From Flavisolibacter tropicus (lineage in GTDB: Bacteria; Bacteroidota; Bacteroidia; Chitinophagales; Chitinophagaceae), in the NCBI RefSeq assembly GCF_001644645.1, contig NZ_CP011390.1:4026001-4090000 (forward strand): a DNA stretch of 64,000 nucleotides, written 5' to 3'. The notes beneath the pieces were generated by a model, which was not told where the DNA came from, searched no databases, and saw only the letters and a list, made by a program, of their open reading frames with translations. Position numbers and translations under genes: made by a program. The stretch's first letter is position 1. The number at the start of each line of letters is the position of its first letter. Positions 7,015 through 63,974 of the stretch are shown here, one piece after another.

Positions 7015-7044
7015 GCTGAAACAAGTTCAGCATGACAGCGACGA
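7015..7044 (+). repeat. Left arm of the inverted repeat around the GIY-YIG gene
   Basis: Reads GCTGAAACAAGTTCAGCATG then ACAGCGACGA. ATGCTGAA (7013-7020) and TTCAGCAT (7026-7033) form an internal 8-bp hairpin with a 5-nt loop. Confidence 0.85.
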
Positions 7045-7114
7045 GTAAAAGCATTTGGGTACAGACTTTCAATAAAAGAGGCGTAGAAAAATAGCGGCTA
7101 GTTATCTTTATTAC

Positions 7115-7414
7115 ATGCCCAAACTAACAAGCTATTCGGTTTACATGCTAAGTAATGTGCATCGAAGCGTATTCTATGTTGGTGTCACCTCTGATCTAAT
7201 GCGCAGAATATGGCAGCACAAAAGCGGTGAAGGCGGAAAGTTTACGTCCAGTTACAAGTGCCACCTCCTTCTCTACTACGAAGCGTATGCTCATATCAGC
7301 CGGGCCATTGAGAGGGAAAAGAACCTAAAGAACTGGCACCGAGAGTGGAAGATCAATCTAATCAAGCAGGAAAACCCCGAAATGAAAGACCTGGCAGCTG
7401 ACTGGTATAATTAA
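7115..7414 (+). CDS. GIY-YIG nuclease family protein
   Basis: A 99-residue single-domain protein. The core is SVYMLSNVHRSVFYVGVTSD, the 'VYM....FYVGVT.DL..R...H' form of GIY-YIG seen in UPF0213/YhbQ-type proteins, followed by RRIWQH, YYEAYAHISRAIEREKNLKN with the conserved Glu region, and a C-terminal WHREWKINLI. Such proteins are predicted nucleases acting on branched or structured DNA; no target is known for this group. The gene stands alone between divergently placed genes and is bracketed by 30-bp inverted repeats, suggesting it travels with them. It keeps intact catalytic-type residues, unlike the GIY-YIG-like protein at 1.0-1.4 kb. Confidence 0.88.
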   Translation: MPKLTSYSVYMLSNVHRSVFYVGVTSDLMRRIWQHKSGEGGKFTSSYKCHLLLYYEAYAHISRAIEREKNLKNWHREWKINLIKQENPEMKDLAADWYN

Positions 7415-7475
7415 AAGGGCACAAATTCTTTTCTACTATTCATGCCGCCATAGGGTGGTTGCCTTCAATAATGCA

Positions 7476-7505
7476 TCGTCGCTGTCATGCTGAACTTGTT
7501 TAAGC
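7476..7505 (-). repeat. Right arm of the inverted repeat around the GIY-YIG gene
   Basis: On the minus strand it reads GCTTAAACAAGTTCAGCATG then ACAGCGACGA, one base different from the left arm. The change falls in the internal hairpin arm. Confidence 0.85.
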
Positions 7506-11959: not shown

Positions 11960-12343
11960 CAGTGGCGAGGAATCGTGAAACGTGAAACGTCAAACGTGAA
12001 AGGGGAGTCCAGTGATACAGGCATCCCTTCAATAATTATTGATTAGTAATCATTGATTATTGAACGTTGAGCATTGAACATTTCCTCCTTATGCCTTGTC
12101 CCTTTTCTTCCTCCCTTCTTCCTTCAACATTCCTTGTTCCTTGTTCAATATTCTCTCTCTTCATCAGCCATCCTCACATCTGCTAATTCAAATCCTGCTA
12201 ATCCATTCTAAATCCAGCCAATCCGCGGTCCTCTGTGCCCCTCCCTGCCCCCGTGCCTCCGTGGTTCCAATTCTCCGCGCCCCCGGCGCGCGCTGCTTGC
12301 AGCTTCTTCTCGCAGCTCACAGCTCATGGCTCACAGCTTTCTC
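11960..12343. repeat. Repeat-filled spacer: GTGAAACGTGAAAC block plus dispersed module copy 2
   Basis: It begins with a tandem GTGAAAC unit block (ATCGTGAAACGTGAAACGTC at about 11971), then a TTGAACGTTGAGCATTGAAC block, CTTCCTTCAACATTCCTTG, TCTCTCTTCATCAGCCATCC, the CTCTGTG.CCTCC..GTGGTTCC..CTCCGCGCCC part, and AGCTCACAGCTCATGGCTCA. It stops exactly at the stop codon of the next gene (12344). The longest blocks match 18180-18475 nearly base for base. Open frames across it are by-products of the repeat. Confidence 0.8.
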
Positions 12344-18155: not shown

Positions 18156-18179
18156 AAATTGATTCTTTTCTTATTGTTT

Positions 18180-18475
18180 ATTGAATATTGAGCGTTGAGC
18201 ATTGAGCATTTCCTCCTTGTGCCTTGTGCCTTGTGCCTTTTCTTCCTCCCTTCTTCCTTCAACATTCCTTGTTCCTTGTTCAATATTCTCTCTCTTCATC
18301 AGCCATCCTCACATCTGCTAATTCAAATCCTGCTAATCCATTCTAAATCCAGCCAATCCGCGGTCCTCTGTGCCCCTCTCTGCCCCCGTGCCTTCGTGGT
18401 TCCAATTCTCCGCGCCCTTGGCGCGCGCTGTTTGCAGCTTCTTCTCGCAGCTCACAGCTCATGGCTCACAGCTTT
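18180..18475 (+). repeat. Dispersed intergenic module, copy 3
   Basis: Starts with TTGAATATTGAGCGTTGAGC, followed by CTTGTGCCTTGTGCCTTTTC, CTTCCTTCAACATTCC, TCTTCATCAGCCATCCTCAC, CCAATCCGCGGTCCTCTGTG, GTGGTTCC and CTCCGCGCCCTTGGCGCGCG, ending AGCTCACAGCTCATGGCTCA. Nearly identical to 12040-12340 over more than 200 bp. A frame open across it is repeat-derived, not a gene. Confidence 0.85.
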
Positions 18476-35310: not shown

Positions 35311-35391
35311 GCTACACGCTGCAAGCTATACGCTATACGCATTTAGACTATCTGCGTGCAGTGTGAAGCGTATAGCGTGCAGCTATACTTA
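35311..35391. repeat. Self-complementary AAGCGTATAGCGTGCAGC repeat
   Basis: GGCTACACGCTGCAAGCTAT then ACGCTATACGC, a spacer, and GCGTGCAGTGTGAAGCGTAT then AGCGTGCAGCTATAC. The halves are inverted copies with mismatches (e.g. AGCTATACGCT versus AGCGTATAGC). It is the same family as the typA leader at 19556, and lies just upstream of the SDR promoter. Confidence 0.7.
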
Positions 35392-35444: not shown

Positions 35445-36143
35445 ATGAATGCGATCATCACTGGCGCTTCTCGAGGAATAGGATTGGAAGTAGCAAAGAT
35501 CTTTGCCCTGCATGGCTATAATTTATACCTGTCGGCCCGTAATGAAGAAAAGTTATTACAGACAGTAGAAGAACTAAAAACACAGTTTCCACATGTGACC
35601 ATTGATACGAAAGCATTTGACTTAGGCAACAAACAACAGGCGCAGCTATTTGGTGAGTGGGTAGTGAATAGTGTTGATACCATTGATGTATTGGTTAATA
35701 ATGCCGGCACCTTTATTCCGGGTAACATTTCAGACGAGCCGGATGGCGCACTGGAAAAGATGCTGGAGGTAAATCTTTTTAGCGCTTACCATGTTACGCG
35801 TTCGGTATTGCCTAAGATGATGGCTCAAAAGACTGGCCATATCTTTACGATCTGCTCAATTGCAGCCTTGCACGCCTATCCCAACGGAGGCGCTTATAGT
35901 ATCAGCAAGTTTGCTTTACTAGGGTTTACCAAAAACCTGCGTCAGGAACTCATGCCACACAACATCAAGGTCACAGCTATTATCCCTGGTGCAGTGTATA
36001 CCGACTCCTGGAAAGGTTTTGTAGAACCCGAGCGTATCATGCAGCCGGAAGATATTGCAACGCTTATTTATACCACCAGTCGCTTATCGATACAGGCCAA
36101 TGTAGATGAACTGCTCATTCGGCCATTGTCGGGCGACTTGTAA
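35445..36143 (+). CDS. Short-chain dehydrogenase/reductase
   Basis: A 232-residue classical SDR. NAD(P) loop ITGASRGIGLEV (6-13 TGASRGIG), structural VNNAGTF (85-88 NNAG), and the catalytic set Ser138 in TICSIAALHAYPNGG, Tyr151 and Lys155 in GAYSISKFALLG. IPGAVYTDSW follows as usual. The residue pattern ARNEEK after strand 2 (Arg32) suggests NADP(H). Its substrate is unknown; such proteins reduce ketones or 3-oxoacyl groups. A GTCATTAG repeat begins directly after its stop codon. Confidence 0.92.
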   Translation: MNAIITGASRGIGLEVAKIFALHGYNLYLSARNEEKLLQTVEELKTQFPHVTIDTKAFDLGNKQQAQLFGEWVVNSVDTIDVLVNNAGTFIPGNISDEPDGALEKMLEVNLFSAYHVTRSVLPKMMAQKTGHIFTICSIAALHAYPNGGAYSISKFALLGFTKNLRQELMPHNIKVTAIIPGAVYTDSWKGFVEPERIMQPEDIATLIYTTSRLSIQANVDELLIRPLSGDL

Positions 36144-36174
36144 AGTCATTAGTCAGTAAGTCATTGGTCATTAG
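36144..36174 (+). repeat. Left GTCATTAG-type repeat
   Basis: AGTCATTAGTCAGTAAGTCA then TTGGTCATTAG: about four degenerate 8-9-nt units of (A)GTCATTAGT. Confidence 0.8.
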
Positions 36175-36209
36175 GTTTTAGCTCAGTTCGTACTCCTAAA
36201 CCGTAAACT

Positions 36210-36572
36210 ATGATACCTCTTAATGAATTGGTAGTTTATAAAACAGCTATGGAAATAGGGGAGGTTGCTTGGAAGTTGACAGAAGAATGGACGCAGTTTC
36301 AAAGAGATACATTAGGAAAGCAAATAGTTAGAGCTGCTGATTCTATAGCTCTTAATATCGCCGAAGGTTATGGCCGGTTCTCCTATAAAGAAAACAAACA
36401 GTTTTGCTATTATAGCAGAGGGTCAGCATTTGAGACATTTAGTGGTCTAAACAAAGCTTATGACAGAAAGTTAATTTCTGAAGAAAACTATGTTTCTCTA
36501 AAAGTTAAGTTTGAGCAGTTCTTTAAACTGTTGAATGCCTACATCAAATCAATAGGAAATGGGGGCACTTAA
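36210..36572 (+). CDS. Four-helix-bundle protein, S23/IVP type
   Basis: A 120-residue all-helical protein. PLNELVVYKTAMEIGEVAWK, then QRDTLGKQIVRAADSIALNI and AEGYGRFSYKENKQFCYYSR, with GSAFETFSGLNKAYDRKLIS and a last helix FEQFFKLLNAYIKSI. The 'L.(D)QI.RA..SI..NIAEGYGR.....(N).QF...A.GS..E......A' signature defines the S23 family (TIGR02436), first seen encoded in 23S rRNA intervening sequences and related to the Avd protein of diversity-generating retroelements. It is basic and probably binds nucleic acid. There is no reverse transcriptase nearby. The gene is bracketed by GTCATTAG inverted repeats and is more AT-rich than its neighbours. Confidence 0.93.
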   Translation: MIPLNELVVYKTAMEIGEVAWKLTEEWTQFQRDTLGKQIVRAADSIALNIAEGYGRFSYKENKQFCYYSRGSAFETFSGLNKAYDRKLISEENYVSLKVKFEQFFKLLNAYIKSIGNGGT

Positions 36573-36574
36573 TT

Positions 36575-36612
36575 AAGTGACTAATGACTTATTGACTCAA
36601 TGACTTATGACT
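36575..36612 (-). repeat. Right GTCATTAG-type repeat
   Basis: On the minus strand: AGTCATAAGTCATTGAGTCA then ATAAGTCATTAGTCACTT. Its outer 12 nt match the left arm at 11 positions. Confidence 0.8.
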
Positions 36613-36616
36613 ATCC

Positions 36617-37318
36617 CTACTCCGCATATTTGTAACCCACACCTCTAACCGAATGGAAGTGTTTGGGGTTGCGGCTATCTTCTTCAAAGTACTTGCGGAA
36701 GTTGAGAATAAAGTTGTCGATAGTGCGGGTGGTAGGGTATACGTTATAACCCCATACGGCTTGCAGGATCTTTTCGCGAGGTACTACCTCGTTTTTGTTT
36801 TCAATCAGCAGCTTTAGCAGCATTATTTCTTTTTTGCTCAGGTCAATCTTTTCGCCTTTAGACGTAGTAGCTTGCTGGGCCTTAAAGTTGACGGTGTGGC
36901 CACCGAATGTATAAGTGTCGCCAACGGTAGAGCGATCCTGAAGTCGCTTATTCTTATTAATTAGTTTTTCTACGCGCAGTAATAACTCTTCCAGGTTGAA
37001 GGGTTTGGTTAAGTAATCATCTGCCCCCTTTTTCAAACCCAGCACACGATCTTCACTATTATTCTTGGCACTTAAAATCAGTATGGGCACTTCCGTGTGG
37101 GTTAGCCGAATGGTTTGGATAACTGAAATGCCATCTATTTCTGGCAGCATGATATCCATGATGATCAGATCGAAATATTCTTCCTGGACGGCTTTCAGGG
37201 CAGCAGCACCATCGAAGGCTGAAGTAATGGAGTATCCTTCCAGATCCAGATTTAGTTTCAGGGCTTCGTGTAGATTTTCTTCGTCTTCAACTAATAGAAT
37301 AGAGGGCTTTGTGCTCAT
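36617..37318 (-). CDS. OmpR-family response regulator
   Basis: A 233-residue two-domain regulator. The receiver domain has the acidic pair EDEE (11-14), phospho-acceptor Asp55 in IIMDIMLPE, Ser/Thr in ILSAK and Lys105 in LTKPF. The C-terminal winged helix (about 133-233) contains ISLSKKEI-type sequence DLSKKEIMLLKLLIENKNEV, then VWGYNVYPTTRTIDNFILNF and HFHSVRGVGYKYAE, typical of OmpR/PhoB. It acts in the cytoplasm as a DNA-binding regulator, phosphorylated by the adjacent kinase. It overlaps the kinase gene by 4 nt, so the two are one operon. Confidence 0.96.
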   Translation of the reverse strand: MSTKPSILLVEDEENLHEALKLNLDLEGYSITSAFDGAAALKAVQEEYFDLIIMDIMLPEIDGISVIQTIRLTHTEVPILILSAKNNSEDRVLGLKKGADDYLTKPFNLEELLLRVEKLINKNKRLQDRSTVGDTYTFGGHTVNFKAQQATTSKGEKIDLSKKEIMLLKLLIENKNEVVPREKILQAVWGYNVYPTTRTIDNFILNFRKYFEEDSRNPKHFHSVRGVGYKYAE

Positions 37319-63946: not shown

Positions 63947-63974
63947 AGTCAATGGTCATTAGTCAATAGTCATT
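63947..63974 (+). repeat. Solo GTCATTAG-type repeat
   Basis: AGTCAATGGTCATTAGTCAA then TAGTCATT: the family that brackets the four-helix-bundle gene at 36.1-36.6 kb, here with no gene. GCGCACAAAACCAGAAG follows, as after the REP at 18080. Confidence 0.8.

Follow-up and report, generated by a model that had tools for sequence, protein, structure and literature searches.

REP/RAYT systems consist of a gene placed between inverted repeats that also occur alone genome-wide, and the RAYT protein is a catalytic Y1/HUH transposase. The S23 protein family is known from the intervening sequences (IVS) of 23S rRNA; in Coxiella, the IVS also has terminal inverted repeats, with a 28-bp stem, and has been termed a selfish element (PMC4990558). 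S23 ORFs are carried by rRNA inserts of CPR bacteria (PMC11270868), S23 genes are contained in cas loci (PMC3936711), and Avd of diversity-generating retroelements is kin to PF05635 (PMC10053308), and two of the reports give the function of S23 as unknown (PMC4990558; PMC11270868). Degenerate, mostly intergenic arrays of heptanucleotide repeats have been described with the units GGGAATC in Xanthomonas and GGGGA(C/T)T in Nostoc; X. campestris has 70 cases of paired inverted arrays, and four units are preferred in the Xanthomonas arrays (PMC4692102). In its available text, the same report links no gene to these heptamers and states that there is no detailed literature on heptameric repeats (PMC4692102). 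Heptanucleotide repeats of the Nostoc tRNA-Leu intron fold into a hairpin (PMC3488679), STRR are cited in the reference lists of PMC4046671 and PMC2858038, and 7-nt TAACTGA repeats occur in Beggiatoaceae, Cyanobacteria, and five Bacteroidetes, with a mechanism of spread described as not evident (PMC4679880). In the open-access literature, subscription papers being mostly outside reach, we found no description of a link between S23 genes and heptad arrays.

The locus analysed here lies in the window, by which we mean the whole 64,000-nucleotide stretch of Flavisolibacter tropicus DNA under analysis (contig NZ_CP011390.1, positions 4,026,001 to 4,090,000); its genome is designated G000 and its S23 unit L016. 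The first-pass annotation had set an S23 gene exactly between the stop codons of an SDR gene and a convergent regulator gene, with inverted repeats at the ends, and coordinates and scores agree with this description (Table 1). The SDR stop TAA occupies 36141-36143, and the regulator stop, at 36617-36619, lies four bases past the end of the right arm (36612). Both arms are arrays of the degenerate heptad GTCATTA, inverted with respect to each other, with four cores on the left (spaced 7, 8, 7) and five on the right (spaced 7, 8, 8, 7). The mixture of 7 and 8 in the spacing keeps the plain lag-7 scores of the unit low (7 and 6). The arms are complementary over 13 nt at 100% and over 20 nt at 90%, and the inverted-repeat score of 20 compares with at most 15 among 50 shuffles and with 11.5 when the right flanks of the other S23 loci are used. 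The unit word, GTCATTAGTCA, has 13 copies in the genome, 11 of them outside the unit, compared with 3 for the reversed control pattern. The arms enclose no transposase, the S23 gene being the sole ORF of at least 60 aa there. The seven neighbouring ORFs checked include SDR, response regulator, and histidine kinase genes and, unlike the surroundings of avd in a diversity-generating retroelement, no reverse transcriptase; the PADLOC anti-phage defence models matched 0 families.

Table 1. The S23 unit, its borders, and gene-free heptad arrays in the window (positions counted from the first base of the window).
Feature	Position	Strand	Remarks
SDR gene, left border of slot	35445..36143	+	ORF, slot comparison, neighbour annotation
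Left arm, G-rich strand	36144..36174	+	four GTCA cores at 36145, 36152, 36160, 36167; inverted pair with right arm
S23 / four helix bundle protein gene, 120 aa, PF05635	36210..36572	+	ORF, profile matches, AF2 model, Foldseek
Right arm	36578..36612	+	five TGAC (inverted GTCA) cores at 36578, 36585, 36593, 36601, 36608
Response regulator gene, right border of slot	36617..37318	-	ORF, slot comparison, neighbour annotation
Heptad hairpin without a gene, carrying the word of S23 locus L011	19559..19620		
Heptad hairpin without a gene, carrying GTGAAAC, the word of S23 locus L018, in the polarity found there	30626..30683		
Gene-free heptad hairpin	35311..35383		5' arm best fits L011 arms, same polarity
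Heptad hairpin without a gene, carrying AGTTGAC, the word of S23 locus L010	49476..49541		
Gene-free array, window unit's word GTCATTA	63948..63972	+	

The encoded protein matches PF05635 (E 2.3e-27, 95.7 bits; curated cut-off 33.8) and TIGR02436 (E 3e-27, 95 bits; curated cut-off 24), and its AF2 model consists of four helices with a pLDDT of 94.9. Foldseek identified 2gsc as the closest solved structure (TM 0.92), with 2rld also similar; Avd has the same fold and was more distant (4dwl, TM 0.76; 8ub7 was also matched). Both relatives, 2gsc and 2rld, contain five chains (A-E), and Xcc0516 (2gsc) is described as a toroidal homopentamer ring, with Lin et al. 2006 cited as the source (PMC4990558). 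The net charge of S23 proteins is small (mean +0.8). Purifying selection acts on S23: dN/dS was 0.01-0.14 in the eight pairs, out of 12, that gave a usable value, with dS saturated (>3) in two of these eight. S23 units resemble REP/RAYT systems in having a gene between repeats that are also dispersed in the genome but differ in that the Y1 (HUH) transposase is absent: within Pfam, S23 matches PF05635 alone and no recognised catalytic family. The protein family is common to S23 units and 23S rRNA IVS, and the window unit has the IVS trait of an S23 ORF between terminal inverted repeats. However, IVS are located in rRNA and excised by RNase III, whereas the arms of S23 units are arrays of unit-specific words, and Rfam detected no rRNA at gathering score in 20 S23 loci including L016.

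The architecture is general among S23 genes. The genome of the window holds 16 PF05635 matches in 15 loci, some interrupted by a stop or frameshift; a period-7 or period-8 array is present on at least one side at 14 of these loci, and an inverted repeat scoring at least 15 within 200 bp at 10, or at least 14 within 300 bp at 12. In S23 flanks, lags 7, 14, and 21 exceed other lags, and lags 8 and 16 do so less strongly. Using two locus criteria, a period-7/8 array score of at least 11 on a side and an inverted-repeat score of at least 14, we measured 193 S23 loci, spread over about ten phyla (among the matches listed), and found the array at 174, the inverted repeat at 150, and both at 144; the remaining 49 fail one of the two criteria. 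Removal of near-copies left 186 loci, with the array at 167, the inverted repeat at 146, and both at 140. Among 1009 control ORFs of 90-180 aa from six genomes of the genus, the corresponding numbers were 73, 12, and 4. In a mismatched-pair control the 99th percentile was as high as 21.5, G-rich words being common to different units, and the ORF control and the protein-word pair test described below were preferred. The words of the loci in the window's own genome differ (GAGCTAT, CGCTTCA, GGTGAAT, CGGGAAT, GTTGACAA, TGATCAA, and others), which rejects one repeat common to all S23 genes. Since words differ between S23 lineages, a search for the repeat of the window unit next to other S23 genes would not have revealed their arrays.

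Both criteria hold at 54 of 72 loci of the genus and 6 of 12 of the order and, for named loci among the matches listed, at 4 of 7 of other Bacteroidota. Cyanobacteria gave 18 of 23 (array in 23/23; among the matches listed), cyanobacterial plasmids 4 of 6, and viral contigs 17 of 25. The remaining counts, again among the matches listed, were Alphaproteobacteria 22/23, Planctomycetes 6/7, Acidobacteria 4/6, Chloroflexi 2/3, Desulfobacterota 2/2, Nitrospirota 2/2, Firmicutes 2/2, and others 1/3. The phylum counts are not a census: the named loci were ranked by likeness to cyanobacterial S23, and 78 of the best 80 were used. Loci came from relatives' genomes, named loci, cyanobacterial plasmids (six of seven records), and viral contigs, with groups taken from record titles. 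Left out of the 193 were the contig-end loci L042, L046, L038, L050, L269, and L298, the second part of L019 (L023), two matches of <60 codons (L024 and L315), and L319 and L321, which share contigs with L313 and L305. Taken across these groups, S23 units look like an overlooked, pan-phylum class of mobile repeat element.

Within the Cyanobacteria, L177, L270, L271, L284, and L291 have arrays and no inverted pair (scores 8-10.5), and L173 has neither. The five former loci have stretches in common in both orientations (among the matches listed), and an IS204-type transposase gene lies directly upstream at L177. L178, on a Pseudanabaena galeata plasmid, is an S23 unit with strongly expanded GCTAAAA arrays that lies between cas6 and cas4.

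The arm period is equal on both sides in 114 of 116 loci, and the upstream arm is the G-rich strand (G>C) in 262 of 289 arms. Among 118 arms (two of them from the mis-cut loci L038 and L050), 44 have five cores, 36 have four, and 15 have six, and the median arm length in 40 units is 4.57 periods. The match between a pentamer and about five cores is suggestive only. In 40 two-armed units, mean pairing was 21.0 for the real arms versus 18.7 for column-shuffled arms, with the real value higher in 26; in many units column shuffling takes away little of the pairing, so selection for perfect pairing of the arms is not a general explanation. Nearly identical arms are found in a few units (L037, L071, L081, and L086).

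We infer that a pentamer may recognise the arms and that S23 may drive their spread, and it seems to us rather probable that the unit is a mobile element of roughly 450 bp, each end carrying about five cores at a spacing of 7 (or 8) that are recognised by the S23 ring. S23, as a homopentamer like its solved relative, would bind the arms born with it, one core per subunit. The ring would then bring the two ends of the unit together, as DNA or as transcript, and would direct host enzymes, or enzymes acting in trans, to copy the unit, and gene-free hairpins would be non-autonomous derivatives spread by the same S23 protein. If this is true, the class would be a mobile element carrying no recognised enzyme of its own.

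The G-richness of the arms admits a different reading, namely G-quadruplex or terminator elements, a proposal already made for the heptamers of Xanthomonas and Nostoc. Quadruplex formation in vitro has been published for GGGNATC repeats (PMC4692102), 60 of 289 arms, mostly from cyanobacteria, planctomycetes, alphaproteobacteria, and viral contigs, contain at least four GGG tracts, and the slot of L068 in genome G015 holds an ordinary-looking terminator hairpin, as judged by eye. Among the 109 arms from the genus of the window, however, none has four GGG tracts and 34 lack even a single GG, so that the quadruplex is rejected as the general cause for this genus, and quadruplexes leave the match between word and protein unexplained. 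We regard this reading as highly improbable.

That match is heritable: loci with similar S23 proteins have matching words. In 14726 locus pairs without detected flank homology (by blastn at 1e-4, from which diverged synteny can escape), words matched in 79.8% of the 124 pairs with S23 similarity above 0.7, in 25% of the 360 pairs at 0.6-0.7, and in 0.7% of the 3269 pairs below 0.2; reverse-complement arm matches amounted to 0-0.3%. On the S23 tree (163 rows, few columns, and many open forks), the label 'period 8' required 15 changes versus 30.5 when shuffled, with 0 of 500 as low. Since S23 and the heptamer repeats are linked by this match, both become directly testable, and if one word is read per subunit, the collected pairs would form a ready set for a recognition code. 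A group of alphaproteobacterial loci (L228, L229, L231, L234, L236, L241, L245, L255, L272, and L282) represents one site by flank homology and carries several words, through either replacement or a joint change of both arms.

Gene-free arrays favour the words of their own genome's S23 genes in three of the five genomes compared. In 464 kb of the window's genome, 95 arrays lie away from S23 genes and 68 of them match its own S23 arms; the arms of other genomes (five genomes) match 9-21 of the 95, and the own arms match 13 when the array is read backwards. The own arms match 21 of 38 arrays in G009 (others' arms, 6-14) and 7 of 10 in G013 (others' arms, 0-4; array counts there leave out runs of N). 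The preference is absent in G003, with 2 of 10 versus 2-5 (9 of its 14 S23 matches sampled), and in G006, with 1 of 9 versus 0-4 (8 of its 11 sampled). Of 16 hairpins in the G000 sample, 10 match no S23 arm, and the other six each match one in its own polarity; for the window hairpin at 35311..35383, the score against the L011 arms was 14.5, while its opposite strand gave 7.0 and the reversed control 10.0. A search with the L068 unit in 18 genomes gave 26 matches in G009, 15 in G006, 12 in G007, and 1-4 in the other 15. Two arrays of the window (12035-12153 and 18171-18288) are composite, with heptads of two or three words seemingly nested.

Heptad arrays might also arise and spread otherwise, by slippage or general repeat machinery, with S23 genes merely tolerated inside them. 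Such an origin would accommodate the seven arrays found in 200 kb of G005, which has 0 S23 matches, the TAACTGA arrays without S23, and the fact that array numbers do not track S23 numbers: G003 has 50 arrays per Mb with 14 S23 matches and G000 has 205 per Mb with 16, so array density fails as a measure of S23 number. It would account poorly for the agreement of word and protein where no flank homology was detected between the paired loci, for the purifying selection on S23, and for the rarity of inverted arrays around other small ORFs, and we consider it distinctly unlikely.

Comparison of sites between genomes supplied the marks of a unit moved or copied whole. The slot of the window unit was comparable in eight of 18 genomes, and the presence/absence variation between the same two genes that the first-pass annotation had led one to look for was found there: the slot is filled with an S23 unit in G000 and G004 and contains only 17 bp in G017 and 30 bp in G005, with other sequence of 143-178 bp in G010, G012, G013, and G016. 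Since G017 is nearer to G000 than G004 is by two flanking proteins, the unit was either lost precisely or gained twice. Between G006 and G015, whose flanks are 82-90% identical, the L065/L086 and L066/L083 slots differ by the whole unit including both arms, and L032 and L085 occupy one slot in opposite orientation. In G015 the L087 slot contains an S23 unit; G009 has an S23 sequence there whose word differs (80 codons, 84% identity to L072), and G006, G003, and G007 have hairpins that lack a gene and carry other words. At the L063 slot, where words were judged by eye, G006 has an S23 unit, G007 a gene-free form with a like word, and G015 and G003 hairpins with other words. The L068 slot holds the L068 S23 in G009 and G006 and arms with a 63-codon S23 remnant in G007; no array was seen there by eye in G015, G003, G014, G012, G005, or G017. 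L059 and L060, both in G003, are 80% identical over about 455 bp, with the homology ending at the outer arm ends, and their flanks are unrelated, scoring no better than the reversed control. Inspection of the compared sites by eye showed no target-site duplication, in pairs none of which is related closely enough for certainty.

These site patterns also bear on a role at the RNA level, in which the S23 ring, like TRAP on its repeats, would wrap the G-rich arm in transcripts and would control how its own mRNA and those of other genes terminate or decay; the units would spread passively as useful 3' ends. The fixed polarity of the arms fits such a role, and in 61 of 123 cases the left arm has its outer end between -3 and +15 bp from a stop, versus 10 of 123 random positions; stop codons contained in the words bias this count. 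Avd, with the same fold, is found in a reverse-transcriptase RNA complex according to the title of 8ub7. However, whole-unit replacement and a copy with unrelated flanks need a moving step, and regulation alone leaves the dispersal of a genome's own S23 word unexplained. We judge regulation of this kind unlikely and retain a mobile unit whose ends are recognised by the S23 ring as the preferred reading.

An extension of the preferred reading, which we put forward tentatively and with some doubt, is that S23 units form a pan-bacterial class in which a non-enzymatic pentameric ring would read five 7- or 8-base words per end through a protein-to-word code. The heptanucleotide repeats that have been on record for decades (STRR, the Xanthomonas and Nostoc heptamers, and the tRNA-Leu intron hairpins) might then be gene-free derivatives, and the 23S rRNA intervening sequences might be units that landed in rRNA. 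The likeness of the heptanucleotide repeats to S23 arms lies in their degenerate 7-nt arrays. In our set, the nearest relatives of Xcc0516, the S23 of X. campestris, are L317, L318, L320, and L326, all near-copies of a single locus; they show a GGGNATT array upstream and no inverted pair.

The TAACTGA repeats of Beggiatoaceae are direct, with one indirect set, unlike the inverted arms of S23 units (PMC4679880). Among 104 viral-contig stretches with three exact TAACTGA copies, there was one S23, located about 1.3 kb from the array. Viral-contig arrays were rejected as a route to new S23 genes: TAACTGA (104 loci) and GGGAATC (three loci) together gave one in 107, and this one was not adjacent. 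Six viral-contig loci (L399, L401, L414, L428, L459, and L466) have pairs of same-strand TAACTGA arrays 432 or 439 bp apart with no S23 between them, which possibly represent another gene with its own heptads.

A general design of one small protein plus its own repeat had also been suggested from the S23 gene together with a GIY-YIG gene. For S23 the idea is strongly borne out, as a heptad or octad array with a word for each S23 lineage, but it does not extend to GIY-YIG as part of one system: a period-7/8 array scoring at least 11 is absent at all nine GIY-YIG matches in the genome. The GIY-YIG gene L124 (window 7022-7498; G000:C1:4033022-4033498) lies between inverted copies of a non-heptad repeat (score 32) whose core, GTCATGCTGAACTTG, occurs at seven exact places in the genome and at 0 for the reversed control, and L125 has another strong inverted non-heptad repeat (score 25). 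L124 and L125 may thus follow a comparable design built on a different repeat. Another small GIY-YIG gene occurs in tandem copies (L127-L130 and L132; G000:C1:1257589-1258614 and 4829599-4830234) together with a tRNA-Leu-like gene recognised by eye.
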